64,000 nt of DNA, taken from the NCBI GenBank assembly GCA_029263395.1, contig JAJCXO010000170.1, positions 1 through 64,000 of the forward strand. Reading direction: 5' to 3'. Numbering within the stretch: position 1 is the first letter of the stretch; each line of letters opens with the position of its first letter. The notes under the pieces are model-generated. The model saw nothing but the letters and a program-made list of their open reading frames with translations. It was not told the origin of the DNA and ran no database searches. The position numbers and the translations under genes were made by a program. The DNA is from Acidobacteriota bacterium (GTDB lineage: Bacteria > Acidobacteriota > Thermoanaerobaculia > Multivoradales > J023). Of this stretch, positions 28,185 to 60,304 are shown one piece after another.

Positions 28185-28380
28185 ATGAAAGCTCTGCATT
28201 CACTTGTGTTGGGTCCGGATCGGCTTGAGTGCTTAGGGTGTCACGACCTGCTCGCCCCTGATGGGACGCTTCAGTTCGGCGTCTTGAAGGTGCAGCATCA
28301 CGGCGCCTTGGCCAACATCACGGAAGAGTTCGTTCACGATATGACCGCCGACCCTTATCTTTTCTGCAGAAATGGTGCCC
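28185..28380 (+). pseudogene. metallo-beta-lactamase-fold fragment, broken at a repeat
   Basis: A reading frame of about 65 codons reads LLAPDGTLQFGVLKVQHHGA, then NITEEFVHDMTADPYLF. That is the KVxHHGS segment and following helix typical of ComEC/MBL-fold hydrolases, with the usual LKVPHHGS changed to LKVQHHGA. The N-terminal metal motif HxHxDH is missing and the frame runs into the repeat unit that starts at about 28380. I therefore see a decayed remnant, not a functional gene. Confidence 0.55.
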
Positions 28381-28392
28381 GCCCCTGCTCCC

Positions 28393-28498
28393 GGTGCCAG
28401 GCACACATCCTGCGCACACATCCTGCGGGGCGAGGAGCCCCCGAACGCACGCCTACTCCCCGTGCAGTTCCCCGTGCCAGGCACACATTCCTCCTGCT
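28393..28498. repeat. 106-bp repeat unit copy A (two GTGCCAGGCACACAT heads)
   Basis: GGTGCCAGGCACACATCC at its start and a second GTGCCAGGCACACATTCC near its end bracket about 60 bases. The whole block is repeated at 34078-34183 with only one base difference that I can see. It abuts the end of the metallo-beta-lactamase fragment. Read backward it encodes the recurring peptide RRMCAWHREQG, a sign that frames through it are not real proteins. Confidence 0.85.
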
Positions 28499-28633
28499 TG
28501 CCACGGCAACATTTTCAAGTACCTCAGTCAGGCATGGATCTATAAAGGAGACTTGATCCACCGCGGCGATAGTCCAACGGGTTTGAGTCGCTATCGGCGG
28601 TCACCACGGAATTCGACGGATGAGCGAAGCGTC

Positions 28634-31036
28634 TCACTGTGCGTGCGATTCCATGGCCTCCACCATCCATTCTACCGGGTCCTTGCCCGGCGGACGCGGA
28701 CGGTCAAGCTGCCAGTGTCGACGCGGCTTCGGGAAGCGGTAGCCGCCGAGCGGCGACAGGAAAAGCGAATGTGCCGCCGGCTTCAGCTCGAGTCCGTCGA
28801 ACCGATAGCCCAGCAGATAGAGCGAAGCCTGGTAGACGTTCTCGAGAGTGGCAGGCTGATTGAGGTCCGCGGATAGGGTCTCGCCAGCGGCCTCGGCGCC
28901 GAAGGTGAGGTCCCACAGGCGGACAGTCCGGTCCGTCGAGCCCGAGGCCAGGCGGGTTCCGTCGGGGCTGAAGGCTACGCTCCAGACCCGATCTTCGTGA
29001 CCCTGAAAGTGGGCGACTTCCTCGCCCGAGGCTACATCCCAGACGCCGATGCTGTGATCTTCATGGCCCGAGGCCAACCGAGCGCCGTCGGTGCTGAACG
29101 CCACGCTCCAGGCCCGATCCGGTGTCTGGAAACGGGCGATCTCCTCACCGGAGGCGATGTCCCAGAGGCGGAGGGTCCGATCTTCCGAGGCCGAGGCCAG
29201 CAGCTTGCCATCGGGACCGAAAGCCACACTGCGGACTGCTTTCGCATGGCCTACGAGGTTGACGATCACTTCACCCGAGTCCACGTCCCAGAGCGGGACA
29301 TTGCGCTGATGCGAGGCAGCGGCCAGGCGACTGCCGTCGGGATGGAAGGCCAAGCCCCAGAATCCGCTGACGCCGCCGTGGCCACCTCCGGCCCCCTGGC
29401 CGTGGCCCGTGCCTCTACTGCCGTGGTGACCCGCGGGCGCTCGAAGGAGAGCAACTTCCCTGCCCGAGGCGACGTCCCACAAACGGATAGTCTCGTCTTG
29501 CGAGCCGGAAGCCAGGCGGGTTCCGTCGGGACTGAAGGCCACACTCCAGACCCGGTGCCCATGGCCCTCGAGGCGGGCGATTTCCTGACCCGAGGCGACG
29601 CCCCAGAGCCGGGCGCTACGATCGTCCAAACCCAATGCCAGGTGGGTTCCGTCGGGACTGAAGGCCAGGCCTCTGACCAGAGACCTGGGAGGATGAAAGC
29701 GGGCTGTGTCGATCCCGGAAGCGAGGTCCCAGAGCCGGGCGCCCTCGCCCGAGCCGGCGGCCAGGCGGGTTCCGTCGGGACTGAATACGACGCTGTAAGC
29801 CGGCTCCGCCTGGCTTTGCAGACGAGCGATCTCGGTGCCGGTCGCGACGTCCCAGAGACGGAGGGTCGGGTCTGTCCCCCCCGAGGCCAGCCGGCTGCCG
29901 TCAGGACTGAACGCCACGCTGTGGATCTGGTCGGCGTGGTCTTCGAGACGGACGACCTCTACGCCGCTGGTGACGTCCCACAGGCGCAAGCTCCGATCGT
30001 CCGATGCCGAGGCCAGGCGTTTGCCGGTGGGATCGAAAGCCAGGCTCGAGACCCGCGCCGTATGGCCTTCGAGGCGCGCGATCTCTTCGCTCGAAGCGAT
30101 GTCCCAGAGACGCAGGGTACCGTCTTCGGAGCCCGCAGCCAGGCGCCCGCCGTCGGGGCTGAACGCCAGGCTCCAGACCCGAGCCGCATCCTCTTGCAGG
30201 CGCGCGATCTCGACGCCCGAAGCGGCATCCCACAGACGGAGGCTCCTGTCGTACGATCCCGAGGCCAAGCGGCCGCCGTCAGCGCTGAGCGCCAAACTCA
30301 GGACGCTCCTCGCGTGGCCTTCGAGGCGGGCGACCTCTTCGCCCGAGGCGACGTCCCACAAACGCAGAGTCTTGTCGTACGATCCCGAGGCGAGGCGGGT
30401 TCCGTCGGCACTGAAGGCGAGGCCCAGGACGCTGCTCCCATGGCCTTCGAGGCGCGCGACCTCCTTGCCTGAAGCGATGTCCCACAGGCGCAGGCTCTTG
30501 TCGTTCGATCCCGAAGCCAGGCGCCCGCCGTCGGGACTGAACGCCACCGCCGAGACCCGAGCCTGGTGGCCTTCGAGGCGAATGATCTCTTCGCCCGAGG
30601 CCAGGTCCCAGAGGCGGATGATCTGGTCGTCCCCGGCCGAGGCCAGACGGCTACCATCGGGACTGAAGGCAACGCTGCGAACGGCGACCAAGGCCGGCGG
30701 CGAGCGCCAGGTCTGGCGAAAGGCGTCGGCGGCAAGCGCCGACGATAGCAGGCTCGCCAGCGAGTCCGGCCACCGCTCTCCCGAGCCGCCGCTGTGCCGC
30801 AGAGCGGCCAGCCCGTAGAGCCAGGCTTGGCGGTAGGCCTCCTGGGAGCCACCGTTTACGGCGACGCTGCGTGCGGCCTGCGCGCTGGCGACCCATGCCC
30901 GCACCGGGCTGTCGGCGTCGATGTCGACGCCTGGGCTTTCGCAGCCCGCCGCCCGGGCCGGTAGCCGAGCGAGACCAAGACTCGCCAGAACAAGGAGGAG
31001 GACGAGGCTCGGGGTGCCGGGTCGTCGCTGGGTCAT
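28634..31036 (-). CDS. exported WD40-repeat protein, 14 repeats (two 7-blade propellers)
   Basis: An 800-residue protein. The start is ATG 31036 with AAGGAG 9 bases upstream; a longer frame begins 69 bases earlier without one. The signal is SLVLLLVLASLGLARLPARA. A helical 90-residue part (AWVASAQAARSVAVNG) is followed from about residue 120 by WD40 repeats of about 42 residues, each ending DVASGEEVARLEGH or close. I count 14, enough for two 7-bladed propellers. Between repeats 10 and 11 there is a Gly/His-rich insert (GHHGSRGTGHGQGAGGGHGG). Repeats 1-14 are very alike at DNA level, which argues for recent internal amplification. Likely a periplasmic or surface scaffold. It stands near the multicopper oxidase, on the same strand, but with a 125-base gap. 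Confidence 0.85.
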   Translation of the reverse strand: MTQRRPGTPSLVLLLVLASLGLARLPARAAGCESPGVDIDADSPVRAWVASAQAARSVAVNGGSQEAYRQAWLYGLAALRHSGGSGERWPDSLASLLSSALAADAFRQTWRSPPALVAVRSVAFSPDGSRLASAGDDQIIRLWDLASGEEIIRLEGHQARVSAVAFSPDGGRLASGSNDKSLRLWDIASGKEVARLEGHGSSVLGLAFSADGTRLASGSYDKTLRLWDVASGEEVARLEGHARSVLSLALSADGGRLASGSYDRSLRLWDAASGVEIARLQEDAARVWSLAFSPDGGRLAAGSEDGTLRLWDIASSEEIARLEGHTARVSSLAFDPTGKRLASASDDRSLRLWDVTSGVEVVRLEDHADQIHSVAFSPDGSRLASGGTDPTLRLWDVATGTEIARLQSQAEPAYSVVFSPDGTRLAAGSGEGARLWDLASGIDTARFHPPRSLVRGLAFSPDGTHLALGLDDRSARLWGVASGQEIARLEGHGHRVWSVAFSPDGTRLASGSQDETIRLWDVASGREVALLRAPAGHHGSRGTGHGQGAGGGHGGVSGFWGLAFHPDGSRLAAASHQRNVPLWDVDSGEVIVNLVGHAKAVRSVAFGPDGKLLASASEDRTLRLWDIASGEEIARFQTPDRAWSVAFSTDGARLASGHEDHSIGVWDVASGEEVAHFQGHEDRVWSVAFSPDGTRLASGSTDRTVRLWDLTFGAEAAGETLSADLNQPATLENVYQASLYLLGYRFDGLELKPAAHSLFLSPLGGYRFPKPRRHWQLDRPRPPGKDPVEWMVEAMESHAQ

Positions 31037-31161
31037 ACCAAGGCTCCTTCGCAACGTCGTCACCGATCGGGATCCGGCGCCTTCCTCGGTCGGTGGGACA
31101 CGCAAGAGAAGAGGGCGACCGATCCGGCCACCCTCGCGCTGAATCGCCAGCGGCGAGCCGG

Positions 31162-33531: not shown

Positions 33532-33799
33532 CGTCTGAGTCCTCCTGTTCCCTGGGTTGAGGATACTGGGTGGTCAGGATTTGGGATATCGACGTGGCCG
33601 GGACAGCAGGCATCTTTGTCGGCTGATTTCCGGGACGAGACTGGCAGTTCGGGGCGAACACGCTTTAGCTCGCTGGCCGCTGCCAAACCCGCATAGGCAT
33701 AGGCGTAGCCAAGCCTACACCGAGCGCACCGTTGGCGGCGCAACTCCTCAAGCCAACGTTTTTCTCCATGCGGCTCGCTCTTCAGTTGAGCCACATGTG

Positions 33800-33821
33800 C
33801 ACTTCTGAAACGTTAGAAGTG
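33800..33821. promoter_or_regulatory. inverted repeat upstream of the multicopper oxidase
   Basis: CACTTCT (33800-33806) and AGAAGTG (33815-33821) form a 7-bp inverted repeat about 270 bases before the oxidase ATG. Spacing and sequence resemble an operator, but the distance is large. No promoter boxes are clear. Confidence 0.25.
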
Positions 33822-33936: not shown

Positions 33937-34077
33937 TCAAGCGAATTTGCGATCAATGGTTTGTCCGCCGGTTCCTTTCGGCGAAGCCTGTAGTTTCCGC
34001 CAGCTAATGCCGACCAGGAAAAGGGCCAGCAAGGCCAGGCCAAAAGGGCCGAGGGTAGGAATCGCTGCCCCTCCTGC
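33937..34077 (-). pseudogene. C-terminal remnant with IPTL-CTERM sorting signal, cut at a repeat
   Basis: On the minus strand 46 codons read AAIPTLGPFGLALLALFLVG, then SWRKLQASPKG and a stop at 33937. This is the IPTL-CTERM layout: IPTL, a hydrophobic helix, then basic residues. Such tails are processed by dedicated sorting enzymes. The N-terminal protein is absent, because the frame enters the repeat unit at 34078 directly. It is the broken end of a once larger exported protein. Confidence 0.7.
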
Positions 34078-34183
34078 GGTGCCAGGCACACATCCTGCGC
34101 ACACATCCTGTGGGGCGAGGAGCCCCCGAACGCACGCCTACTCCCCGTGCAGTTCCCCGTGCCAGGCACACATTCCTCCTGCT
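34078..34183. repeat. 106-bp repeat unit copy B
   Basis: Near-identical second copy of the 28393-28498 unit, with T for C at the one difference I find (CCTGTGGGG versus CCTGCGGGG). It starts exactly where the IPTL-CTERM fragment is cut and ends before the next gene. Confidence 0.85.
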
Positions 34184-34313
34184 CAATGAACCGGATAGGG
34201 TCAGTCAGTTAAACTCGCGACCCGCTGGCTCTGATCGCTGAATCGGGTGTTTTGCGCTCGAGGATTCAGTCCACTGCACGTCAAACAGCTCAGGTCTCAG
34301 AGGAGAGAACAAC

Positions 34314-35193: not shown

Positions 35194-35274
35194 GCGCCCA
35201 GGATGGGCGCAATCGTAAAGCCTGGGGTGAAACCCCAGGTAGGGAGGCTTCTCTCCCGCGCCCTGAAAGGGCGC
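35194..35274. repeat. triple-hairpin structured cassette
   Basis: Three perfect stems in a row with purine triloops: GCGCCCA-GGA-TGGGCGC (35194-35210), CCTGGGGT-GAA-ACCCCAGG (35221-35239) and GCGCCCT-GAA-AGGGCGC (35258-35274). A GTGCTAGGCACACATCC head variant begins directly after, at 35286. This kind of stacked, GC-rich palindrome is typical of REP/BIME-like mobile non-coding repeats. Confidence 0.7.
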
Positions 35275-35281
35275 CACATTC

Positions 35282-35310
35282 TGCGGTGCTAGGCACACAT
35301 CCTCCTGCTC
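35282..35310. repeat. variant head of the GTGCCAGGCACACAT repeat
   Basis: TGCGGTGCTAGGCACACATCC followed by CTGCTC, with one base changed from the common head (GTGCTAGG for GTGCCAGG). It follows the triple-hairpin cassette. Confidence 0.6.
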
Positions 35311-35635
35311 CCGGTGGGAGTCACTAGATGAGGATGCGCGATCGGTCGTCAACCAGTCCACGGCGGATTGATCGCAGGTTCCGGCGGATTCCTGCGTGGG
35401 CACAAGTTGAGGTCGATGGCCACCGACTCGAAGGGGGTTGGGCTGGGACCAATCGAGGTATTCCCAGTTAGCTGTCAGGTTCTGGGAGACTCGTGAGACC
35501 GAGACTTCGGGCTGCCGGCAGCCTCCCTTTTCCGCTCGCAGCAGCCGCTCCGAGCCTGGCCGCGAATCGGCGCCGACTGGAACTGAAGCGCGAGGTAGAG
35601 AGTCCAAGTACTGTGATCAACGTAAGGAGCCTGCC

Positions 35636-36259: not shown

Positions 36260-36344
36260 ACAGAACCTCAGTTCGGTTGTTAGAGGCTAGCGGGCAATGT
36301 GTCCTAGATCTCGGCGAGTCGGTAAGCCCTGATCACCTGCTCCC

Positions 36345-36354
36345 GTGCCAGGCA
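36345..36354. repeat. short repeat head next to the group II intron fragment
   Basis: CCTGCTCCCGTGCCAGGCA ends at 36354. It contains the repeat head but stops before CACAT. The group II intron-like hairpin starts 7 bases later, so the intron seems to interrupt the repeat. Confidence 0.45.
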
Positions 36355-36360: not shown

Positions 36361-36670
36361 GCCGGTTAAAACCGGCAGAGTGTAGGAGGTGAAAGTCCTC
36401 TATAACGAAAGGAGTAGCGATCCACGTTAGCCCCGAGTCATGCGGTCGGTACCGTAAGGTGCCGGACGAAGCGTTGACAGGGGGTGTACGAGCAGGGCTA
36501 TTGAGCCGTGAAAACACGTAAGTTTCGGACGTCCACGTTGTTGCCAGAGGCGGGGACTGCACCGACTGTCGCGTTATCGCGAGTGTCAGTTGGGTCCGGC
36601 GCGGTCGGAGAACCTTTGCGCGTACACAAGCATTCTGCGCGGGAACCGGGAGATCCCGTGACCGACCTTG
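36361..36670 (+). ncRNA. group II intron 5' fragment (domain I-like)
   Basis: A hairpin GCCGGTT-AA-AACCGGC (36361-36376) is followed at 36380 by GTGTAGGAGGTGAAAGTCCT and further by GAGTCATGCGGTCGG, then GACGAAGCGTTGACAGGG and later GGGAACCGGGAGATCCCG. These are group II intron domain I features that I recognise: a GUGYG-like 5' end and GTGAAAGTCC with GAAGCG and GACAGG. The intron-encoded reverse transcriptase and domains V-VI are not here, and the next DNA is a repeat unit, so only a fragment survives. A hairpin directly in front of the 5' end fits group IIC insertion next to terminators, but the class is uncertain. Confidence 0.55.
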
Positions 36671-36690
36671 GTCGATGGTGGCAGGGTCCC

Positions 36691-36800
36691 CCTGCTCCCG
36701 GTGCCAGGCACACATCCTGCGGGGACCGCTGGCAGTTCCCGGGTTGCATCTTCGTGCACGCCTCGAGGCGAACCCTCGAGGCGTGCCAGGCACCTTATAA
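36691..36800. repeat. complete head-hairpin-tail repeat unit
   Basis: CCTGCTCCCGGTGCCAGGCA and CACATCCTGC form the head (36691-36720). A 13-bp perfect stem follows, GCACGCCTCGAGG (36756-36768) with CCTCGAGGCGTGC (36774-36786) around CGAAC. GTGCCAGGCACCTTATAA (36783-36800) is the tail. This is one of the clearest complete copies of the family. Confidence 0.75.
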
Positions 36801-36847
36801 GGAGGGCACCTCATAAGGAGATCAAGCAGGGTCCGGCACCGGCCCCG

Positions 36848-37784: not shown

Positions 37785-37812
37785 CCCCTGCTTCCGGTGC
37801 CAGGCACACATC
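37785..37812. repeat. repeat head at the broken end of the serine recombinase
   Basis: CCCCTGCTTCCGGTGCCAGG followed by CACACATCT. The recombinase frame runs from 38308 down to this point and then continues as nonsense through the repeat. Confidence 0.75.
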
Positions 37813-37813
37813 T

Positions 37814-38308
37814 AGGAACAAGACGGATCTGCTGCTGGATAGTGCGAATTAGGATCTTGCGACGTTCCTCATAGGCTGCCTCCGCGGCGAAAGCCTCGCT
37901 GGTGCGACTCGGAGATTCGGTCGACCATTCATACTCGAACCCGACTTCTTCTAGAGCATTACGACTGGGCTGAATTACTCCAGCCGTATCGAGGAGTTCA
38001 GCACCCAGAGCTTGGACACGCTGTTTCAACACGTTGTAAAGCGGGTAGCCTCCGCGAGAGAAGCGTTCAATGTACCGGATGATGACAGCATCAACCTTCT
38101 CTGCTCCGGTCTCTAGGCGCCCTAGCATCTGGTCAAGAATTGGGCGATCGTTCTTGAGTCCAGTGTAGGGTTCACGAAAGACACCAACAACTCGAAAGTT
38201 GTGAAGCTGGGCGTACTTCCGTCCGATGTCTTCTTGTAGGTCGAGGCTCTCGCCGAAGTCGGCCTGTTGAGGTGTGGAGACCCGAAGATAGAGGAATGCA
38301 GATTTCAA
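37814..38308 (-). pseudogene. N-terminal part of a serine recombinase, cut at a repeat
   Basis: About 165 codons read FLYLRVSTPQQADFGESLDL, the catalytic serine motif of serine resolvase/invertases (YxRVSTxxQ). Then FREPYTGLKNDRPILDQML and IIRYIERFSRGGYPLYN follow, the usual core with the catalytic Arg residues. The frame ends in RTIQQQIRLVPRCVPGTG; CVPGTG is the repeat read backward. The recombinase and DNA-binding parts, normally another 300 or so residues, are absent. It is a broken gene. Confidence 0.8.
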
Positions 38309-44638: not shown

Positions 44639-44640
44639 GC

Positions 44641-48600: not shown

Positions 48601-49219
48601 GTTGGGGCAAAGCTCACTGTCCGAGGGGGCTCAAGTCCAGGTGATTGCGGATCCCGCGACCACCGTCTTCGGTCGGGTAGTCGATGAGAGCGATCAACCC
48701 GTGGCGGGGGCGGATGTCGAGACGATCGGTGTCCGTGTCGACATCAGTGATGGCGAGGGGTTCTTCACTATTCCTGATGTGCCGACGATTGAGGGTGACC
48801 TGGTGGTCTCCGGCGCAGCGGTGATCGGTAGTGTTCCTGCCGTTGGTGAGTCTCAGCCGACAGTGCCGAATCCTGGCGGCGTGACCGATGTTGGCGACAT
48901 CAAGCTCATGGAGCTGCCAGCTTCGGATCTGTGCCCATGTACCAATCCGGCCAACTGGAGCGATGCCAACGGTGTCATCTGGTCCTTTTTCTTAGATGGC
49001 ACGATCGGTGCTGCCTCGTGCACCGACACCGCAACGGTGACACAGCTTGGCGCTGAGTGTGTTTCGGTGAACGTCGATGCATCGGTCTCCGAGTGCCAGA
49101 TCATCTTGCCGTGTGGCGGATCGAATCTTGCGTTGCCGATCGAAGCAACAGAGATCACTGTGTGCCGTGAGGCGTTGCGACAGGCAGCTGCGGATCGTGG
49201 GGTTGGGTGTAGTCCGTAG
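45623..49219 (+). CDS. exported multidomain protein with TSP3-like repeats, LVIVD propeller and Ig-like domains
   Basis: A 1198-residue exported protein. ATG 45623 has GGGAGG upstream and overlaps the previous gene. After the signal ([20 protein letters not shown]) comes a Big_2-like segment. Calcium-type repeats follow ([51 protein letters not shown]), as in thrombospondin type 3. From about 420 to 720 there are LVIVD-type repeats ([25 protein letters not shown]), a propeller. Three Ig-like domains ([28 protein letters not shown]) and a carboxypeptidase-regulatory-like end with four to five Cys pairs follow. No catalytic motif. Probably a calcium-dependent surface or matrix protein. Confidence 0.8.
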
Positions 49220-49358
49220 GCCGATGTTACGAACTTGAAGGTACTTGATACCCAGCGGATCAACTTCAGTCACAAGGATACAGAAGCGTGACTATCCGTA
49301 GGCATGCGGTTTGCCCACAGACTCCAGGCCCGAGGAACCCCCAACGGGGGATGAAGAT

Positions 49359-50765: not shown

Positions 50766-51014
50766 TCCGGCACAACGCGAGCTTCCTCTTTCTGGGACCG
50801 GATCAGGTCCACGAAATGGGAACAAACCCGAGTGCTTAACGATCTCAGAAACTTGCAACCACTGCTGGGCGAGTAGCCCTTGATTGGCCGGCACCCGGGA
50901 GGCAACAACCCATGTCGACACGTCCAGCGTTTCAATGAAGAGAGCAGAGGGCGCTACCTATCCGAGCAAGAGGTCGCCTGAATGGGCACTGTCGGTGGGG
51001 GGAGAGTTAGTCAA
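50766..51014. other. intergenic stretch without gene
   Basis: No coding frame or clear element is seen before the repeat head at 51015. Confidence 0.4.
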
Positions 51015-51046
51015 CTGCTCCCGGTGCCAGGCACACATCCTGCGGG
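51015..51046. repeat. repeat head before the 272-bp duplicated block
   Basis: CTGCTCCCGGTGCCAGGCAC followed by ACATCCTGCGGG. It opens the unit whose tail is the end of the 51047-51318 block. Confidence 0.75.
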
Positions 51047-51318
51047 TCTCAACTTGACGACGCATCGCGTATCGTGAGGTAGGTCACGGTCGAGAATTTT
51101 CGATCCGAAGTCGCGATGATCTGGGGTTGCCGGATCGCCAACGCAACTCCTTAATGATACCCGAAGGCCGGGCCGACGCGTTGGAAAGGCTGCGACCCAT
51201 TGCCGTAACCTGCTCTGCCTGCTGATCGATGATGTCGAGCGCTTTTGCTTGCGGCAACACCTCTGAGTGACGTCGTGGTAAAGCTTTAGGAATGCCAGGC
51301 ACCTTAAACTGGTGGCCC
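51047..51318. repeat. 272-bp direct repeat copy 1, ends in a tail motif
   Basis: It begins TCTCAACTTGACGACGCATC and ends GCCAGGCACCTTAAACTGG, then TGGCCC. A second copy of about 271 bp lies at 54656-54926, with about seven base differences and one single-base indel by eye. The block contains open frames on both strands, none resembling known proteins. It ends exactly at the stop codon of the metalloprotease gene. Confidence 0.85.
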
Positions 51319-52428
51319 TTACGGAGTCGACCAGCTCGACAGGTCGCCGGACTCGAAGCCGTCGAAGAACATCACATCCCAAGAAACACCCGAGCTGATC
51401 GTGACTCGGATGATTCCCAAAAAGGGATCAGGGATCACAGCATGATGAACCCACCCCAAGGGGGGCATAGTCGGATCTATTGCCACTAGCTCGGCTTCAC
51501 ACAATCCGAGTTCACCCGCTCCGAGCGGATCGAATAGCACCTCGATTTCCGCATCCGCGCAGTCATCGACGAGAGTTAGCTTGATCGTGTAATCGTCGCC
51601 GGTTCCTGCTGTCGCATCGAGCCCGCTCATACCGTGGCGGGTTGTGTTGGTGTCGTCGGCGGTGAGTCCTGAATAGACCATGTCGCGAGCGGCTACCCCA
51701 TGCATGACGCTCTGTGTATTGTCGCCAGCTCCAAGCAGATCAGCCACATATCGATTAGCGCTCGCCGGCCATGTGCTACCGGCTGGTAGATCGCTATTGA
51801 TTTTCGAGAACGTACTGGAATCGATCACAGTTCCATCGATGATCACCGGGTTATTGTCTGATTTCCTGAACCAGTGATTGAGCACGGCACTTGGCGGCGG
51901 CGGGCTCGGCGGCGGTGTGGCGACATCGTCGCCGGATCCCCGGATGTTGTCGGCTCCGTCATCGTATGAGGTTATGCCGGTGCCTGCGGTGAAGTTATCC
52001 AGCGGCGAACCGGGTCCGGCCTGAAAATTACTATGCTCCAAACCGATCGCGCAATGCCCCAACTCATGAGCCATCGTTGTGATCATTCGCGCAACCCCTG
52101 GCGGGTTGGGATCATCGGCAGATGCGCAGTCCGTACAGTTGCCCGTTGTCGGTGTTAGACCGTTCCATATCTCGATCGCCTCGACTAGCGCCGGCTGTAC
52201 GAATGGAGCGTCACCCGGCCGAATGCATATCGGGATCTCGATCTCTCCACCGATCCCGGCCGACGTGTACCCGACCGGATGCACGATGATAAAAGTATTG
52301 CAAGGATCACAGCCGCTCGGCGTACAGTCGCAACACGGCCCCACGTCGGACGTAGAACATAAGAAAACACCTGCCCAAGCCGACGAAGACGAGAGCAGAG
52401 CCAACGCAAGAAAAAGCCTGTAGATCAT
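51319..52428 (-). CDS. exported metzincin-like metalloprotease with C-terminal DGFESGD tail
   Basis: A 369-residue protein with signal LFLALALLSSSSAWA. ATG at 52428 follows GGAGGTG. An N-terminal Cys cluster (CCDCTPSGCDPC, about 32-43) is followed by the zinc motif MAHELGHCAIGLEHSN (HExxHxxGxxH, near 125), and SVMHGVAARDM could be the Met-turn. This is a matrixin/metzincin-type zinc peptidase. A Pro-rich loop (PPPSPPPPS) sits near 178. The tail reads MFFDGFESGDLSSWSTP, the same kind as on the alpha/beta hydrolase at 2808. The gene starts by ATGA overlap with the upstream gene, forming an operon. Target proteins unknown. Confidence 0.82.
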   Translation of the reverse strand: MIYRLFLALALLSSSSAWAGVFLCSTSDVGPCCDCTPSGCDPCNTFIIVHPVGYTSAGIGGEIEIPICIRPGDAPFVQPALVEAIEIWNGLTPTTGNCTDCASADDPNPPGVARMITTMAHELGHCAIGLEHSNFQAGPGSPLDNFTAGTGITSYDDGADNIRGSGDDVATPPPSPPPPSAVLNHWFRKSDNNPVIIDGTVIDSSTFSKINSDLPAGSTWPASANRYVADLLGAGDNTQSVMHGVAARDMVYSGLTADDTNTTRHGMSGLDATAGTGDDYTIKLTLVDDCADAEIEVLFDPLGAGELGLCEAELVAIDPTMPPLGWVHHAVIPDPFLGIIRVTISSGVSWDVMFFDGFESGDLSSWSTP

Positions 52429-53492
52429 TTTTTCACCTCCCCGCGAGCGGCTTCGAATTGATCGTCCAGAGCTTGCAATATTGCCTTGAGCCCCTGTACC
52501 TGGATCCTTTCGGGGTAGCGCTCTAGGGCTAATCCGACATCTGGTAATTGATACTTACGAGTTAGGTTATTCCTCGTGTACTCTCCCCGCTGATACGTCT
52601 CTAGATGGATCTCGCCACCCGCCCCGCCCGCGTCAGTTCGGCTACGCCATCTGAGCGTGTCGTGATCCCACTCGGCGAAACCGTGATCGACGGCGATACG
52701 GACAAGCTCGACCATATCGGGATAGTCCAAGATTCGATCGAAACTTTCCCGCGTAACGTTCCCTTGTTCGATGTTGCGCAGCTCTAATCGTCCGTCGCCA
52801 TAGAGGCGCATCGAGCGGGTGGTCGACAACCCATAGAGCCGTCCAAAGCTAAATATCAATTCTGTCGGATCACTCGACAGAGTGAACTTCGCGGACTCGT
52901 AATTGGCGGCGGGGATCTCGATCGATCCTTCGCGCCTGGCTGCGCTGAGCTCGACCTCGAGCACGGCGGCAAGATCCGCCAGCGCTTGCGATTGGACAAT
53001 CCCCGGATAGTCGGCCGGACAGATCCCCCGCGTCGACTGATTCGCGCCCGCGCCGTGGCGATCGTAGGCCGTGAATCTGAGTGTGGCCTCGACTCGAGGC
53101 GTCTTGCACGGCTTTCGAAAGGCGGCATCCTCGCCTATCTCCAGAATGAGCAGATCCGGCCCAAATTCGGCGAGCCCGTGATCCACAGCGGTGCGGAAGA
53201 TCTCAAGCATCCGTGAGCGGTCGAGACGGCGGCTGTAGCGCTCATCGTCGCCGGTCTGGATGTTTAGCCGTCCGTCGCCGTAGAGGCGCATAGAGCGCCC
53301 GTCATGGTCCACACGGAGCACCATCACGGCGGCATCATCCGAGATCTCGAACGTCGCTTCTGAATACGGCCCGGGCGGGTAGCCGTTGGCCACCGCCACG
53401 GCTGACGGGCGCGGCCCAGCGTCACCACCTGACGCGAGGACAAGCCCTGCGAGGCCTAGCCCCGCGAGACCAGCTAGCAAAAAGCGATTCAT
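52425..53492 (-). CDS. exported protein with internal duplication, unknown function
   Basis: A 355-residue protein with signal LLAGLAGLGLAGLVLASGGDA. The sequence contains an internal duplication: the first half has DHDGRSMRLYGDGRLNIQTG and AVDHGLAEFGPDLL, and the second half STTRSMRLYGDGRLELRN and AVDHGFAEWDHDTL. Each half is about 150 residues. I recognise no family. The ATGA overlap with the metalloprotease suggests it is its partner, for example an inhibitor or pro-factor; this is an inference only. A 14-base perfect palindrome lies about 40 bases upstream of its start. Confidence 0.62.
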   Translation of the reverse strand: MNRFLLAGLAGLGLAGLVLASGGDAGPRPSAVAVANGYPPGPYSEATFEISDDAAVMVLRVDHDGRSMRLYGDGRLNIQTGDDERYSRRLDRSRMLEIFRTAVDHGLAEFGPDLLILEIGEDAAFRKPCKTPRVEATLRFTAYDRHGAGANQSTRGICPADYPGIVQSQALADLAAVLEVELSAARREGSIEIPAANYESAKFTLSSDPTELIFSFGRLYGLSTTRSMRLYGDGRLELRNIEQGNVTRESFDRILDYPDMVELVRIAVDHGFAEWDHDTLRWRSRTDAGGAGGEIHLETYQRGEYTRNNLTRKYQLPDVGLALERYPERIQVQGLKAILQALDDQFEAARGEVKK

Positions 53493-53529
53493 TTTTTTCC
53501 CCTTCCCCTCTCGCCGATAGTTACTAATA

Positions 53530-53543
53530 GTTTCGGCCGAAAC
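53530..53543. promoter_or_regulatory. 14-bp perfect palindrome upstream of the protease operon
   Basis: GTTTCGGCCGAAAC is fully symmetric and lies about 38 bases before the ATG of the first gene. This is the size and place of a dimeric repressor operator. Confidence 0.4.
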
Positions 53544-53609
53544 TGGCCGAGCATTGGATTTCAGCCCTACTATTTTAGAGATTTTTCCGTAGACCCGTTC
53601 CTCGTTTCG

Positions 53610-53919
53610 CTATCTTCTGGCGGACTTTCGGAGTGATGACACCGTCTGAGTGTGGGCACAAATGCCCGGGATGCAAAAGTGTTTGGCTGCCTGCCGTTTC
53701 GTCGCCTCCCCGCGTCGATCATACTTCGCCGTTGTACTAGGGACGGCATGGCCCGCAAGATGTTGGACCGTGAACACGTCTACGCCGTTCCCAAGCAACT
53801 GCGATGTAAGCGATCTTCTAAGGTCATGCGGACTGAACGCCTCGACTCGAACCGCTTCTTGCCGGCGTCTCAGAATGAACGAGATCGACTCTCCCCACAT
53901 CCGACTGATCCTGACATTG
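53610..53919 (-). pseudogene. C-terminal part of a tyrosine recombinase, cut at a repeat
   Basis: A 115-codon frame begins inside the repeat. From MWGESISFILRRR onward it looks like a real integrase: HDLRRSLTSQLLGNGVDVFT (HxxR), VQHLAGHAVPSTTAKYDRRG (His and the Tyr nucleophile). The N-terminal core-binding domain and the first catalytic arginine are absent, because the frame meets the GTGCCAGGCA head at 53931. It is a remnant of an integrase. Confidence 0.8.
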
Positions 53920-53940
53920 CCCCTCCTGCGGTGCCAGGCA
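53920..53940. repeat. repeat head at the broken end of the tyrosine recombinase
   Basis: CCCCTCCTGCGGTGCCAGGC, the variant head also found at the IPTL-CTERM remnant (34065-34083). The recombinase frame begins to make sense just beyond it. Confidence 0.7.
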
Positions 53941-54474
53941 GCAACTTGAGAAGTCATCTAAATGTTGCTCAAGCCCTTCGCCAAGCGGTTCTAGGGCAAA
54001 TTCATAAGGGTGGGCCACATAGCAACCCGGCCTACTGGGGAGCTTTTGCTGTCATTGGTGGCTGAGCACTCCGCTGCCATACTTCTTGAGTATCAGGCAT
54101 GCCACCGGCATGCTCAAGCTCTGCACCACACATCCTGCGGTGCCAGGCACACATCTAGCGTAGCCGACCACAGTACCGCCGGCTGCCAGTTTTAGGTGAG
54201 CCAGGCATCTAAACCTGGGCACACCCATCGTCCAAGCTCGCGACGGCAAGACGAGCATCGATCGGGCGGCCTACAGACTGGGGGTCGTGTCGTATCGCCG
54301 AGCTGTGGTTGCCATCGTGTCGCCCAACACGTTGCCGAGCCGCAAATGGGCGATCGCATGCGCTGGCAGCGCGTTGTTGACGCGGCTGAGGTTTTAAGAG
54401 GACGCTCGAGGCGCGTTATCGAGCGTCGATTCCGCCACTCAGCCCGTAGTGGAAGCGTCGTTTACCGATGCTTC
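53941..54474. other. repeat-rich stretch between the integrase remnant and the minisatellite
   Basis: It holds a further head at 54129-54156 and a tail-like GAGCCAGGCATCTAAACCTG near 54199. Frames on both strands are short and I recognise none. The piece 54225-54390 has codon-like composition and may be the relic of an unidentified gene. Confidence 0.4.
54129..54156. repeat. repeat head
   Basis: ACACATCCTGCGGTGCCAGG followed by CACACATCT, the same version as at the serine recombinase break. Confidence 0.65.
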
Positions 54475-54690
54475 GAGGATTCTGGCGTCCCAACTGGCCA
54501 ACGCATCCGATGTTTTGAGGATTTTGGCGTCCCAACTAGCCAGCGCATCCGATGTTTTGAGGATTTTGGCGTCCCAACTAGCCAACACATCGGATGCGTT
54601 GAGGATTTCGGCGTCCCAACTAGCCAACACATCGAATGCGTTGAGGAACTTGCTGTCTCAACTTGCCGACGCATCGCGTATCGTGAGGTA
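54475..54690. repeat. 42-bp tandem repeat, about five copies
   Basis: Units beginning GAGGATTTTGGCGTCCCAAC start at 54475, 54517, 54559, 54601 and 54643, exactly 42 bases apart, with drift in the last copies. The period is 14 codons, so the array is open in both directions. On the plus strand it encodes RILASQLANASDVL-type units. Its end merges into the 271-bp duplicated block. Confidence 0.88.
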
Positions 54691-54926
54691 GGTCACGGTC
54701 GAGAATTCTCGATCCGAAGTCGCGATGATCTGGGGTTGCCGGATCGCCAACGCAACTCCTTAATGATACCCGAAGGCCGGGCCGACGCGTTGGAAAGGCT
54801 GCGAGCCATTGCCGTAACAGCTCTGCCTGCTGATCGATGATGTCGAGCGCTTTTGCTTGCGGCAACACCTCTGAGTGACGTCGTGGGAAAGCTTTAGGAA
54901 TGCCAGGCACCTAAAACTGGTGGCCC
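54656..54926. repeat. 271-bp direct repeat copy 2, ends in a tail motif
   Basis: Second copy of the 51047-51318 block. It starts TCTCAACTTGCCGACGCATC and ends GCCAGGCACCTAAAACTGG, followed by TGGCCC. It overlaps the last unit of the 42-bp array. Confidence 0.85.
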
Positions 54927-54976
54927 AGACTGATCCTAAGTGCAGCTGTTGTCTTGCGGTAGACTGCTCGCTCGCC

Positions 54977-55540
54977 ATGCTCGACCGACTCATCATCCCT
55001 GAGCCCATAGCCCTCTCAGGCCGGCCCGCTCCAGGCGAGTACGCAGACTACGCACAGGCCGATTTCGATCATGTCGAGGGCGACGACGCCGTCGCCGTGT
55101 TGGCCGCGGTCGCTGACGAGACCCTGGAGATGCTCGAGCCGCTCGCCGAGACCGCGGTCGCAGGGCTGACCTACGCGCCGGGAAAGTGGACGGCCAAAGA
55201 GATTGTCGGCCACCTGGCGGACGACGAGAGGATCTACGCCTACCGCGCGCTCGCCGTCGCCCGCAGCGACGAGACGGTATTGCCCGACTTCGATGAGAAT
55301 CTCTACGTGTCGACAGCGGAGGCCGAGAAGCGTCCTCTCGCCCACCTTCTCGCCGAGTACCGGTCTGTCCGCCAGGCATCCCTGGCCTTGTTCGCGGGCC
55401 TTCCTGCCGCCGCCTGGCAACGCCGAGGTCACTTCGGCGGTTACCACCCCTCCGCCCGCGGCCTTGCCTTCCACATTGCCGCCCACGAGCTGCACCACCT
55501 CCGCATCCTGCGGGAGCGCTACCTGCCGCGGATCGGTTGA
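54977..55540 (+). CDS. DinB-family protein
   Basis: A 187-residue four-helix bundle protein of the DinB/YfiT type. The ATG at 54977 is chosen, since the upstream frame runs through the repeat. Family features: WTAKEIVGHLADDERIYAYR (His of the metal triad) and HIAAHELHHLRILRERYLP (the HxxxH ending). Members are metal-dependent thiol transferases or of unknown function. It is intact and sits between repeat blocks, apparently undamaged. Confidence 0.85.
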   Translation: MLDRLIIPEPIALSGRPAPGEYADYAQADFDHVEGDDAVAVLAAVADETLEMLEPLAETAVAGLTYAPGKWTAKEIVGHLADDERIYAYRALAVARSDETVLPDFDENLYVSTAEAEKRPLAHLLAEYRSVRQASLALFAGLPAAAWQRRGHFGGYHPSARGLAFHIAAHELHHLRILRERYLPRIG

Positions 55541-55577
55541 GCCCGGACGGCACGCCGGGGCCAGCTCGACCTCCGAG

Positions 55578-55621
55578 AGCTCGTGCCAGGCACGCATCCA
55601 GCTCGTGCCAGGCACGCATCC
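55578..55621. repeat. two tandem 22-bp repeat heads at the truncation of the helicase gene
   Basis: AGCTCGTGCCAGGCACGCAT followed by CC occurs twice in tandem at 55578-55599 and 55600-55621. This is a variant head (GCATCC for ACATCC). The next base begins the sense frame of the helicase. Confidence 0.75.
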
Positions 55622-55622
55622 T

Positions 55623-58600
55623 GCTGACCTGATCGAGTTGCGGCACGCTTGGCGGTGCCCGGTGACCCGGCGGCTACTGCCGAGAGCCTTCCGGGGCCTT
55701 ACTCCCTACCTCACCTCGGCAGATGCCACAGCCGCCAGTTGCGAGGAGCTCACGATGCCCCGGGTGCGGGACGCGCGATGGCGCGATTCTCGGGACCAGC
55801 GGTGGAGCGGGAAGGATATCTTCAACTGGCTCGAGGAGGATCTTTCGGTTGTGGAGCTCCGCAGCCGGGGCCTGTGGAGCGATCTGAGTGACCGCTTGGT
55901 GTCTGGGGTCGAGTACTACCGGGCGGCGGAGCACTCGGCCCAGCAAAGCGGTACCCGGCTTCGGGAGCTGGAGAAGGAGTTCAAGCAAGGGCGCGTGAAC
56001 CTCCTGTCCTGCTCAACCACCATGGAGATGGGCGTCGACATCGGCGGTCTTTCGATGGTGGCCATGAACAATACCCCTCCGAGCCCATCCAACTTCTTGC
56101 AGCGCGCCGGCCGCGCGGGGCGCCGCGACGAAGCCATTGCCGTGAGCTTTACCCTGTGCAAGGCCACTCCCCATGGTGAAGCGGTCTTCGAAAATCCCCT
56201 GTGGCCGTTCAGGACTCCGATCTACGTGCCCCGGGTCTCGTTGGAAAGCGAGCGCATCGTCGAGCGTCATGTCAACGCCATGGTCCTGGCGCGATTCTTC
56301 GCTAATCTTGGCAGCGAGGTCGAAGCATTGAAACTGGACGCCGGCTGGTTCTTCGGCTGTGATGCCGGGACCACATCCACTCCGGCGGAGTTGTTCTGCG
56401 ACGCCTGCCGCTCGTCCCAGATGTTGGGGGACGAGAGCTTGACACGAGGCCTCCAAAACCTTCTCCAGCGTACATCGCACGAGGACAGCTCATGCGAGGA
56501 GCTGCTCGAGCAGTCCGCCAGCGCCATCGAGGGCATCCGGGGGAGGTTCGCCAAAGAACGGAACAGCCTGCTTGATGATCTGAAATCGGTCGAAAACCAG
56601 CATACCGGCAAGGAGACGCCGGAGCAAAAAGCGATTCAGATCCAACTCAAACGATTCCTGGGCGAATACCTGCTCTCGGAGCTGGCGAGCAGGGGGTTCC
56701 TTCCCGGCTATGGTTTCCCGACCCACGTGGTGCCGTTCGTTCACACCACCGCCAAGCAATTCGAGGCCGAGCGCCGATCCCGACAAGGTGAGAAGACCAG
56801 GGAAGACAACCGAGCCTTGCGCCGCAGTTATCCGTCCCGGCAGCTCTCGATCGCGTTGCGGGACTATGCTCCGGGCAACGAGGTCGTCCTCGACGGCCGG
56901 GTCTACCGCTCGGAAGGAGTGACGCTCAACTGGCACGTGCCGCCCTCAGATGGTGATGTCCGCGAGCTCCAGGCGTTTCCCGTTGCTTGGCGTTGCCTGG
57001 AATGCCATTCCACTGGCACGCGCCCGAGCCAGCAGGAGGAGTGCCCCTCTTGCGGCGCACGTAAGGACAGGCTCCGGCAGAGGAGCTTCCTGCAGCCCGC
57101 GGGCTTCGCGGTCGGCATCCGCTACCAGCCCCACAACGACATCTCATATACGCCGTATCTACCGGTCGAAGAGCCCTGGATCTCCGCAGCTGGAGAGGAC
57201 TGGACTGATCTCCCTGACCACCGATGGGGCCGCTTTCGTTACAGTCCGCGGGGGCACGTCTTCCACTACTCTCGGGGTACGGCCGGTTATGGCTACGCGA
57301 TCTGCTTGGGTTGTGGGCGCGCCGAATCCGAAGTGGAGCCTCGACCTCGGGAGGGCGAGAGCGACTTGCCCGGGAGCCTGCCAGGCCACAAACGCTTGCG
57401 GGGTGGCCGGGAGGCGGAGGGCACGCATCTCTGCCGGGGCGGTACGGAAGCAAGGCTGGTCAAGAGGTGGCAGTGGCTCGGCGCACCGGCACGGACCGAC
57501 GTCTTCGAGCTTCAGCTCCTTCGGCCTACCCGTGAGCCGCGGATCGCCGCCTACTCGATCGCCGTGGCCCTGCGCGAGGCGCTTGCCGAGAAGCTAGGCA
57601 TCGACCCGCGGGAAATCGGCTGTGCCGCAAGCGAGGCCGAGCGGCAGGATGGCGAGCCCAGGACCTACTCGATCGTTCTCTTCGATACCGCGAGCAGCGG
57701 AGCGGGCTTCGTGGCGGCAGCCGCCGAGCACCTCCCCGAGCTACTGCGGGCCGCCCGAGGTCGACTCGCCAAGTGCCCACGCCACTGCAATCGCGCCTGC
57801 CATGCTTGCCTGCTGACCTATGACTCTCAGTACCAGGACGCTCTGCTCGATCGCAGGATCGCGTATGAAGCTCTGGACGATGAGATGATCGCCTCCCTCG
57901 ACCTGCCAAGGGCTCAGCAGTATTTCGGTGGTGCTTCGGTTGCCATCTTCGCGAATCCTCCAGATACTGTCCGCCGCGAGGCCCAGCGGCAACAGATACG
58001 TCAGGTGGAGATCTTTCTCGGGGGAGATGGCGCCCGGTGGGAGATCGCGCGCTGGAATCTCCATCGACACTTGCTGGGCTGGGCGGAGAGTAAGCAGGTG
58101 CGCCTCGTGCTCGATCGCCGAGCACTGGTGCAGATTCCCCCTGAGGTATCGGCGGTGTTGGCCGACCTCTCACGGGTCGACGGTATCGAGCTCGCTTCGA
58201 TCCCGGAGCTACCCGCGGCTCCGGAAGGCGGTGTCCTGTTGGCCCGCGTCGGCGACGGCGAGCGTTGGACGGCCTGGGCCAGCGCGTCGGCGTCGGCAAC
58301 TGAGCCCGGCGAGGCGTGGGGTGCGCTGGGTGATCGGGAGTTCCTGGTGCGGGCCGCTGACCTGCCCGATGCGGTGTTGCAGACGGACCCGATCCCGGTG
58401 CAAGATCTGCTGAGACCCTATCTGGGCGCATTGCTCGAGATGAAGATATCCCGGGAGCTGGATGGACCGGTCAGCGGGTTTGGAGAGAAGTTCTGGAAAG
58501 CGTTACTCGAGTCGGCACCGCCAGTAGGTGCACTGCTGAACGCCGGCGAGCCTCTTGAGAAGATCTCCTACTGCGACCGCTACCTCCGCTCTCCCCTAAC

Positions 58601-59048
58601 CGTGAAGCTGCTGTATGAAATTGTGAAGGGACTGCACCGGCACAAAGGGCTCCAGGCCGACGACTGCGTCGTGGAGATCCACACGACCCCACCACGCGCG
58701 AACCGCCCGCCCCAAAGAGTCAGCGACGATTGGGTTCATGCCAGGGCGGCGCGGCGCGCCATCGAAACGGTATTCGGAGATCGCTGCAAGGTCCGGCAGA
58801 CATCGATTCAGGATTCCCCCCATTGGCGAGAGCTGGCCTTGCACTTCCGTGGCGGTCGCCGGTGGCGCCTGAGGCTCGATCAAGGCTTCGGATTCTGGAG
58901 CGAACGCGGATACCTGACTTTCCCATTCGAACGTCCGGCTGAAGACCAAGCAGAATGGCTCCGGAAAGAGCGATTTAGTATCGTTGCCCGGCCATCCCGG
59001 CACAGCACAGCGCTCTATGTCTTCACACCAGAAGGTCCCGAGAGTTGA
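55623..59048 (+). pseudogene. helicase C-terminal + DUF1998 protein, 5'-truncated at a repeat
   Basis: Roughly 1140 codons. The preceding 140 codons read from another frame of the DinB gene and are noise. From 55623 it reads WRCPVTRRLLPRAFRGLTPY, then LLSCSTTMEMGVDIGGL and FLQRAGRAGRRDE (helicase motifs V and VI). After that come a long region and a DUF1998/MZB zinc module: LFDTASSGAGFVAAA, then CPRHCNRACHACLLTYDSQ. The upstream helicase half with Walker A and DEAD motifs is missing; it should precede 55623. Such helicase-DUF1998 proteins belong to defence systems such as Druantia (DruE) or DISARM (DrmA/B). Either this gene is dead, or the rest supplies a partial function. The stop overlaps the next small frame. 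Confidence 0.78.
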
Positions 59049-59293
59049 CAATCGCCGCCGACTTTGCCGGCTGGGAGCACGACAACGCCAAGTTCGAAAA
59101 GCAGTTCGAGCGGGTGGTGAAGGCGTTGAGGACGGATGAGAGGGCGCGGGAAGAGGAGCGGGAGTTGAAGCTGCAGCATTGGTTGGTGCCTTTCTCGAGG
59201 CTGCGGCTTCTCCGACTGGGAGATCGAAACCGCCAAGCTCTGGAACCCCGATCTCGACGCCGACGAGCGCGCACCACCATCGGTACGAGATAG
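59045..59293 (+). pseudogene. decayed fragment behind the helicase gene
   Basis: An 82-codon frame starting at a TTG inside the helicase stop. [20 protein letters not shown] and [13 protein letters not shown] look like a real protein start, but after about 45 codons the sense shifts to another frame ([18 protein letters not shown]). This suggests a frameshift and decay of a gene that once followed in the operon. I do not recognise the family. Confidence 0.4.
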
Positions 59294-59434
59294 AACGCAT
59301 CCGCAGCGAGCAGCCCTTCGCCCGAGGACGCCGATGAGGGCCTGACGGCGACGCGGGTCGCAAAAGGTCTCCGACGAACCGGGACGACTCATTCTCGGGT
59401 CCAGGCTGCTTCCGTAGAGTTTGCAAACTCTTGC
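59294..59434. other. short gap without gene
   Basis: No coding frame or element is seen. Confidence 0.35.
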
Positions 59435-60016
59435 TCAAGGGCTCCGGGAATCAATGGGCGACGGCGAGCTGGGAGTCGTTTGCTCGAGCGGCTCCAAGCC
59501 CAGTCGCTTGCGATGCTGCTCTAGAAACTCCTGGACCTCACTCGACGCGGGACCAAGGTCTGATACCCTGGCTGGCAGCTTTGCAATCTCTCGACTCTTA
59601 GCAAGCAGCCTACGCCCTTCCTCGACAAGCCCGATCTCTTCCAGTTGATCCCCGACCTGCCGGAGAATCCAACTACTCTCGGGAGATGCATCCGCTGTCT
59701 TGCGCAATTGCTTGATTCCAGCTTCACGCTGTCCGCTGGCAATCAGCGCCTTGGCCAGCTGAATGCGGAACGCGGCACTTCTTGGGGAGATGTCCAGGGC
59801 GGCCCGCAATGGTTCGAGTGCCGCGTCCGGTTGTCCAGAATGGAGCAAGGTTCGGCCAAGGGCGGCCTGGTACACATCGCCTCCCGGCTCAAGACCTATC
59901 GCCCTACGCAACGCCTCGGCCGACTCCTGATAAAGCTCGAGTTCGAACAGTCTGGAACCGAGCTTGCGGTAGTCTTCGGGCTTCTTCGACTCGCCTCTCA
60001 GTGCTCGGCGATACAT
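59435..60016 (-). pseudogene. TPR-repeat protein, 5' part lost at a repeat
   Basis: From ATG 60016 the frame reads MYRRALRGESKKPEDYRKLG, then LFELELYQESAEALRRAIGL and VYQAALGRTLLHSGQPDAAL, tetratricopeptide repeats of about 34 residues. Upstream the same frame continues as RRMCAWHRER, which is the repeat read backward. The true N-terminus is therefore lost, and the 194-codon part may be either a fragment or a shortened protein. A C-terminal Pro/Ser tail ends it. A function cannot be given. Confidence 0.65.
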
Positions 60017-60024
60017 GGCAGCCG

Positions 60025-60098
60025 CCCGCTCCCGGTGCCAGGCACACATCCTGCGAGAATAGTGGTAAGTTACTCGTGGCAGGCACCTAAACTTGGGG
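60025..60098. repeat. compact head-tail repeat unit
   Basis: CCGCTCCCGGTGCCAGGCAC and ACATCCTGCG form the head, then about 20 bases later GTGGCAGGCACCTAAACTTG is the tail. It starts where the TPR gene is cut. A reverse-facing GTGCCTGGCACC lies further on at 60181. Confidence 0.75.
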
Positions 60099-60304
60099 CG
60101 GGGCCCACCATCAGACGATTCCCGCGCAGTGATGGGGGCCGTTTCGAAGGCGCCCGGCGTCACTGAATCCGTCAGAACTAGTGCCTGGCACCGCTAAAAA
60201 TGGAGTCAATTGCTTTGGCGTAGATTCCCGTTGTCTCCGCGCGGGAATCGGGGACCTGTAATGGAGTCGCCCAGTCGGAACGATTGATAAGAGGGATCGA
60301 TTGT

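Follow-up and report, generated by a model that had tools for sequence, protein, structure and literature searches.

A probable REP-like palindrome at the cut ends of genes in an Acidobacteriota contig, and its family association with long Y1 transposases

Background

Why should so many gene fragments of one bacterial contig end at copies of the same short repeat? The question is raised by a stretch of 64,000 nucleotides (nt), hereafter the window, of contig JAJCXO010000170.1 in an Acidobacteriota genome (assembly GCA_029263395.1), where the initial annotation had counted about 20 copies of a hairpin module between 28.4 and 60.2 kb and none in the first 28 kb, and had proposed that the module either mobilises and captures flanking DNA or marks recombination joints. 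The module is most likely a repetitive extragenic palindromic (REP)-like element built on a GTGCC-A-GGCAC hairpin, with feet beside the stem that vary between genomes and loci. Genes are cut at several of its copies, one REP-ended segment is duplicated, and the palindrome is associated, across the bacterial family, with genes resembling those of REP-associated tyrosine transposases (RAYTs). Local spread of the REP followed by rearrangement at its copies is, in our judgement, the probable though by no means assured origin of the cuts.

Results

Module copies were counted with a 17-mer, GTGCCAGGCACACATCC, at up to 3 mismatches and with the core, GTGCCNGGCAC, at up to 1 mismatch, the expectations being taken from shuffles. 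In the window, the 17-mer occurs 12 times, from 28,394 to 60,051 and always on the + strand (0.14 expected in a shuffled window, and no shuffle reached 12), while the core occurs 20 times (3.55 expected, shuffle maximum 9), and neither is found 5′ of 28,394. The approximate number of copies and the empty first 28 kb are thus borne out, but the supposed copy at 36,345 is no module and an additional exact head copy lies beyond the window at 68,620, near the end of the 68,800-nt contig. The local character of the repeat held in the whole 10.68-Mb genome, in which 13 of the 14 places matching the 17-mer with up to 1 mismatch lie on the source contig. Exact cores number 14 on this contig, one of them in reverse orientation. 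Spread of the 17-mer into other genomes was considered and rejected, as the 12 stretches concerned hold one match each and are read as chance from these counts alone.

A head consists of CTGCTCCC, GGTGCCAGGCAC and ACATCCTGCG in this order, its stem GTGCC/GGCAC being centred on a single A, and a tail consists of the head's core followed by CTAAACTGG-like sequence; tails lie at 51,292, 54,199, 54,900 and 60,076, with a relative at 36,783. Heads are also combined into larger units: the ~124-bp element with two heads at 28.4 kb recurs at 34.1 kb with 99% identity over 107 nt (34,077-34,183), the larger differences being at the left ends, and the heads at 55,583 and 55,605 form a tandem with a period of 22 nt. 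As for the core match at 36,345, said to border a group II intron, it was rejected as a module because it is the 5′ end of the intron itself: with small differences, among them one letter of the core, a 68-nt stretch starting TCCCGTGCCGGGCAGATAGCGCC also begins an intron match on another contig (C96). The intron remnant gives a full-length match of 176 bits to the group II intron D1-D4-6 model at 36,392-36,614.

Genes cut at a module edge are evident at five sites, from homologs or from domain models (Table 1). One of them is the Druantia type III helicase DruE, whose fragment scores 1,191 bits against the Druantia III profile at positions 937-2052 of 2055 only, so that no complete helicase is present; the first 936 profile positions are absent on the module side (edge 55,625), and from its residue 6 onward the fragment aligns with a 2,108-aa helicase of the Protein Data Bank (PDB) from residue 980 of the latter. 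The tyrosine recombinase that ends at 53,918 has nothing that corresponds to the sequence before residue 230 of a 317-aa homolog. For the serine recombinase, of which 162 residues remain before the frame meets the module at 37,817, alignments to homologs in relatives (n = 11) extend to residue 149 of the fragment; the open frame is 523-621 aa long in nine of these homologs, against 241 and 274 aa in the other two, and the recombinase frame now continues through the module into the TonB-C gene. The match of the MBL-fold fragment to a 450-aa homolog begins near residue 295 of the latter and reaches 'CRNG'; the fragment ends after its residue 64 at the module (28,382), where the homolog continues. 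The fragment also lacks its N-terminal part, but there is no module at that end. Finally, the IPTL-CTERM match at 34,068 exceeds two curated cut-offs (24.7 bits for 20.5, and 22.9 bits for 20.8), which supports the view, from sequence, that it is a bare sorting tail cut at the module. All five gene ends had been singled out in the initial annotation, and the comparisons uphold them; a sixth, the tetratricopeptide repeat (TPR) protein at 60,016, is less clear: its TPR matches start near the module, but the repeats give no firm register. In addition, sequence related to another contig of the same genome (C208, where by eye it is the end of a gene) breaks off at 54,891, and the tail core at 54,900 follows in less than 10 nt.

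Table 1. Modules, gene fragments and duplicated segments, in order along the window
Position	Strand	Feature	Basis or remark
28185..28376	+	MBL-fold hydrolase, C-terminal part	450-aa homolog
28382..28505	+	Two-head element, heads 28,394 and 28,474 in direct orientation	Copy search
33940..34068	-	Orphan IPTL-CTERM sorting tail, gene body gone on module side (34,068)	
34066..34189	+	Two-head element, second copy	Copy search
35274..35315	+	Head copy GTGCTAGGCACACATCCTCCTGCTCCC	
36689..36722	+	Head copy 3′ of group II intron remnant	
36783..36820	+	Tail-like palindrome with duplicated 3′ tag (CACCTTATAAGGAGGGCACCTCATAAGGAG)	
37785..37817	+	Head copy, flanked by the TonB-C gene's upstream region and the serine-recombinase fragment	
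37818..38308	-	Serine recombinase, N-terminal ~162 residues	Homologs in relatives
51012..51045	+	Head copy joined straight to the duplicated 280-bp segment	
51046..51325	+	Near-identical copy of 54,654-54,933	Ends with tail palindrome (51,292)
53613..53918	-	Tyrosine recombinase, C-terminal ~100 residues	Homolog alignment
53918..53940	+	Incomplete head copy TGCCCCTCCTGCGGTGCCAGGCA with a gene fragment on either side	23 nt identical to 34,066-34,088
53943..54065	+	Probable CHAT-domain protein, C-terminal 40 residues, from module edge	Weak Pfam match
54128..54220	+	Head (54,140), then tail (54,199, two core mismatches)	
54654..54933	+	280-bp segment in its longer context	Part matches contig C208; tail palindrome at 54,900
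55578..55625	+	22-nt head variant, tandem, 2.2 copies	
55623..59048	+	DruE helicase, C-terminal ~1,130 residues (Druantia type III)	Profile, PDB alignment
60023..60096	+	Head (60,035), then tail (60,076)	
60181..60191	-	Sole reverse-oriented exact core on the contig	Core search

What lies on the other side of two of these modules tells more about how the cuts arose. At 53,918-53,940, the truncated tyrosine recombinase faces a probable CHAT end that starts at the far side of the module, a junction which had gone unnoticed before; the match is weak (Pfam positions 248-288 of 289, 18.2 bits for a cut-off of 24), and among the matches listed this 40-aa candidate reaches E 0.1-0.4 with CHAT or TPR proteins. 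At 55,578-55,625, an intact DinB gene, ending at 55,540 with its domain complete, meets the helicase without its N-terminal half. Simple insertion leaves both halves of one gene on the two sides, and since different genes meet at 53.9 and at 55.6 kb, neither module is a simple insertion, which gives some support to the proposal that the modules mark recombination joints. Flanking DNA is also copied. Indeed, the copy of the 280-bp segment at 51,046-51,325 begins exactly at the 3′ edge of a head and ends just past a tail, and in a relative (genome G002, contig C24) a 130-nt unit is duplicated in which the palindrome accompanies the final ~27 codons of a gene for a pseudouridine synthase; together, the two duplications indicate that palindrome-bounded flanks do get copied. 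To this extent the idea that the module mobilises or captures its flanks keeps some support; against its generality stand the genes beside arrays of the relatives, described below.

The order of heads and tails could also mean that these are composite single-strand elements, in which the head is the left end, the tail the right end, and a Y1 protein moves head, cargo and tail together, the gene fragments being cargo. Within 300 nt, a head precedes four of the five tails and follows none of them; when placements were made at random, 38 of 100,000 did as well (the test was post hoc, and 36,345 was kept among the heads). Moreover, the head-tail spacers differ, and the 280-bp segment has its left end at the 3′ edge of a head and its right end shortly beyond a tail. 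However, no tail follows the heads at 28.4, 34.1, 35.3, 37.8 and 55.6 kb within 300 nt, just one cargo is present twice, and a DNA search of this genome with 44,500-64,000 gave, among the 40 of 128 candidates that were scored, no further copy of the fragments of DruE and the tyrosine recombinase, so that these look like remains in place. We regard such composites as unlikely.

Alternatively, the modules would be filler, that is, scars left when breaks in the island were patched with short templates from nearby palindromes, without any mobility of their own. The copies are local, short, of one orientation, sometimes partial and several times placed at joints, all of which fits repair. This explanation is nonetheless decidedly unlikely in our view, as the ~124-bp two-head element stands nearly unchanged at two sites, and the tandem arrays of relatives, found beside seemingly intact genes and RAYT genes, would need an element biology of their own.

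Such arrays became apparent when the palindrome was followed in the seven genomes of the bacterial family (the source genome, G000, and its relatives G001-G006) and in 52 order relatives outside it, with the reversed pattern as control of the core count. The core is over-represented in four of the seven family genomes, hence in three of the six relatives: 46 occurrences versus 7 for the control in G000, 33 versus 6 in G001, 262 versus 3 in G002 and 105 versus 8 in G006. Summed over the 52 genomes outside the family it occurs 134 times versus 144, the highest single counts being 13 versus 6 (G038) and 11 versus 1 (G011). Direct tandem arrays, usually with units of 21-33 nt, are frequent among the copies of G002 and G006, and the feet are typical of the genome (CTGCGG in G002; TTCGCAG or TTATCCG in G006). 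The feet seen by eye are CTGCGG, TTCGCAG, TTATCCG, ACATCC, CTAAACTGG and CTATACTT, whose stem-adjacent letters read GCAG, CGAA, ATAA, ATGT, TTAG and ATAG on the other strand; two of these are one letter from GTAG, and no GTAG or CGTC foot is among those read by eye, no systematic motif search having been made. The palindrome is short, many-copy and mostly intergenic, as a REP should be, with a modest copy number in G000. Inverted pairs, which characterise REP doublets forming hairpins (REPINs) and bacterial interspersed mosaic elements (BIMEs), are not its habit, since a single inverted copy stands among the contig's 14 exact cores and the listed arrays of G002 and G006 are direct; some RAYT flanks do carry copies of opposite orientation on the two sides of the gene. 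Note that some arrays of G006 even keep the reading frame of the long open frames (848-1,556 codons) in which they lie (L273:11001-11093, L276:4790-5068 and L259:9990-10091); they would add repeats such as EVPGT, VPGTSQ and GARHLSE to the proteins.

The suggestion that a RAYT might be involved proved right in kind, as the palindrome flanks many long RAYT-like genes. We collected 51 long Y1_Tnp genes from the seven family genomes (a first set of 41, of 216-499 aa and some cut by contig ends, and then 10 more), two Y1 pieces of G000 at contig edges (97 and 131 aa) and the short IS200-class Y1 genes being kept apart. GTGCC-N-GGCAC (up to 1 mismatch) lies within 450 nt of an end of 22 of the 51 long genes, where 29 permutations of the arms with the same letters gave a mean of 2.6 and a maximum of 9, and at 1 of 17 short IS200-type loci. 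The feet at the RAYT flanks are those of the dispersed copies of the same genome (CTG.. in G002, TTC.. in G006), and a RAYT-like gene of the source genome on contig C48 carries the tail foot CTAAACTGG. A flanking cognate RAYT, as in the REPtrons discussed below, is thus found for the palindrome, and not for the head subtype itself.

All 51 long proteins (41 of 41 and 10 of 10) have the HuH motif, and 46 of them have L.Y.L.[HN]..KE about 60 residues after it, whose tyrosine, from the alignment to ISDra2 TnpA, is presumably the catalytic one; the published class 2 signature Y---NP occurs in none of the 51. A profile of 14 proteins, compared with solved structures, matched ISDra2 TnpA at E 2e-5 and Escherichia coli TnpAREP at E 0.005. 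In a phylum sample of 396 genomes the profile matched 12 of the genomes at E ≤1e-20, ten of them in the same order, source genome included; up to five candidates were scored per genome, so the gene numbers are lower bounds.

The link to Y1 genes bears on one more explanation, by which a site-specific recombinase would use the modules as its attachment sites, of integron or serine-integrase type, and shuffle gene cassettes at them. The single orientation, the gene pieces between sites and the recombinase fragments nearby would suit it. We disfavour this explanation and give it very little credence, because in the family the palindrome goes with Y1 genes, is arrayed in tandem units of 21-33 nt and may even be part of an open frame without disturbing it, and no intact integrase was seen among the scanned proteins of the window at 27-64 kb, the rest of the genome not having been searched.

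Discussion

Taken as a sequence of events, the probable reading given at the outset is as follows. A RAYT of the long Y1/HuH group, acting in trans, would spread the ACATCCTGCG-footed REP subtype locally and in one orientation over the last ~40 kb of the contig, an island of defence and recombinase genes in decay. Once direct copies were numerous in this dispensable DNA, deletions and rearrangements would have resolved at them, either through deletion between direct copies or through single-strand cleavage by the RAYT and rejoining of neighbouring DNA. The association in the family argues for the spread by a RAYT and the joints argue for the rearrangement; from them, we infer that a RAYT moved these copies and that insertion came first and deletion after.

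Several observations weigh against this reading, and the first group comes from the arrays of relatives. Forty regions of G002 and G006 were examined, comprising 30 tagged or array clusters, with 26 untagged single cores counted apart, and coding was judged by a codon model built for this analysis, to which short decayed fragments are invisible. No coding flank was seen at 16 of the 30 clusters versus 122 of 1,200 random points, and several arrays begin 1-12 nt past a stop codon if their edge is set 12 nt outward of the first core; by the test that the initial annotation proposed, nearness to gene ends is thus the ordinary habit of the repeat. Ten of the 15 listed abutting genes were given to Pfam, two being without a domain, and none of the eight informative ones is cut in a domain towards the array; in five of these eight, a complete or near-complete last domain lies near the C-terminus (SLT, GGDEF, pseudouridine synthase, peptidase S9 and CsgG). 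As arrays adjoin intact-looking genes, the presence of a REP alone does not break genes, and a general rule to this effect was rejected. Under the same model, the window has no coding flank at 12 of its 17 module positions and a flank at 5, but because short decayed fragments escape the model, the contrast between island and relatives rests on homology and Pfam. With caution, the broken ends look like a feature of this decaying defence and recombinase island and not of the repeat in general, a distinction that rests on eight genes, with short decayed fragments in the relatives possibly missed.

The other points of this kind concern the transposase and the sites. The palindrome is not near 29 of the 51 long Y1 genes, the head foot GGCACACATCC is at none of the 51 loci, and no Y1 gene was found on the source contig. 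Of 41 family loci, no more than 4 had GTGCC singled out (0 of 50 shuffles) in a stricter, de novo palindrome test, and at 17 RAYT-like loci from other families of the order this arm was never among the top three. NCBIfam NF047646 (REP transposase) gives 36-57 bits for a cut-off of 80 in all eight proteins tested, although it is still the best-scoring family for each of them. The core is near background in three family genomes (2 versus 2 in G003, 13 versus 8 in G004 and 7 versus 10 in G005), and no empty site was found for 44,500-64,000, the best relatives matching this part piecewise at ~70-77% DNA identity. An orientation following the replication strand, judged by GC skew, was also tried and rejected (25 of 39 regions, p = 0.11).

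That habit of lying near gene ends suggests yet another account, in which the cuts are a coincidence: REPs usually lie near gene ends, as is also described for other REPs (Di Nocera et al. 2013, PMC3733652), the array edges of G002 and G006 just past stop codons follow this rule, and the island would merely be rich in dead genes. We consider it most improbable, since the cuts fall inside domains at the module edge and not at natural gene ends.

Compared with known systems, the module resembles most the REPtrons of E. coli, Stenotrophomonas and Pseudomonas, in which REPs or BIMEs accompany TnpAREP. Shared features are a short many-copy palindrome, often intergenic near gene 3′ ends and sometimes in frame inside genes, and Y1/HuH genes flanked by copies with matching feet. 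The REPtrons differ in their GTAG or CGTC foot, which was not seen here, the closest being the tail type with TTAG or ATAG on its opposite strand; the present module has a genome- or locus-specific foot, a 5-bp stem, a 1-nt centre and mostly direct tandem copies instead of inverted pairs, and its window subtype is confined to one ~40-kb region. REPINs, defined as inverted palindrome pairs (PMC6006769), likewise consist of palindromes that are thought, in the available text of Bertels and Rainey (2011), to be moved in trans by a RAYT, but the pairs found here are mostly direct. The REPs of T. species are also restricted to few chromosomal blocks, but they are GTAG-tagged and, in what is accessible of their description, come without a link to truncated genes. 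Concerning the cleavage step, TnpAREP is reported to cleave single-stranded REPs (Corneloup et al. 2021, PMC8266576, in its accessible part). Ends of the IS200/IS605 insertion sequences (IS608, ISDra2) share hairpins with the module, and the profile similarity to ISDra2 TnpA fits; their strand-specific single-strand movement would explain the one orientation. They differ in that the module lacks a transposase and no self-contained insertion-sequence copy is present here. In the literature, a string match with three spellings of the core motif gave, among the matches listed, no title naming a bacterial repeat, and on REPs with pseudogenes, deletions or breakpoints only Coxiella miniature inverted-repeat transposable elements concerned, by title and among the matches listed, bacterial palindromic elements.

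The closest published transposases are subclasses 2.1 and 2.3 of TnpA_Y1, which, in the portion of the 2018 survey available (Quentin et al. 2018, PMC6006769), are also long Y1 proteins with an added C-terminal domain (median 325 aa for 2.3) and an HuH of NH.H type, and for which that portion reports no REP-like flanks. These subclasses have Y---NP, whereas the present group has it in none of 51 proteins and has L.Y.L.[HN]..KE in 46; judged by sequence, the long Y1 group (HuH, long C-terminal domain, no Y---NP) is unlike the published subclasses with which it was compared. REP-like palindromes are thereby linked to long Y1 proteins whose C-terminal domain is large, a link which that part of the survey does not have for 2.1 and 2.3. 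More speculatively, and doubtfully as a whole, a Y1 subclass beyond the 2018 classification might act on privately footed hairpins, with head/tail composites turning the island into a REP-bounded mosaic as direct hairpins of different foot type move whatever lies between them in a local burst.

The ~40-kb REP subtype of one orientation, the duplicated REP-ended segment and the gene cuts at module edges provide concrete joints to test. Moreover, cuts at REP edges suggest one way in which defence islands decay; among the genes cut here is that of the antiviral DruE helicase, of which half remains.

Some neighbouring sequences may be added. A gene with 14 WD40 matches (28,634-31,105) lies directly right of the first two-head element. 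At 54,403-54,686, a 42-nt tandem repeat, CCGATGCTTTGAGGATTTTGGCGTCCCAACTAGCCAACGCAT, also occurs on eight other contigs of the genome and several of G001, on both strands; its units at 54,465-54,675 were considered as part of the module and rejected, as they form a separate dispersed family. At 51,328-51,397 a gene ends, by eye, with a FDGFESGDLSSW-like C-terminus, and stretches of 30-66 nt of this DNA are met again, with 78-97% identity, at many places of the family, as if it were a shared C-terminal motif. About 100 nt directly 3′ of the DruE fragment (59,052-59,151) recur with 83-90% identity on three other contigs and on one of G001. Finally, a large ResIII / type III restriction-like gene occupies 60,284-63,376 and has a 71%-identical relative in G001.

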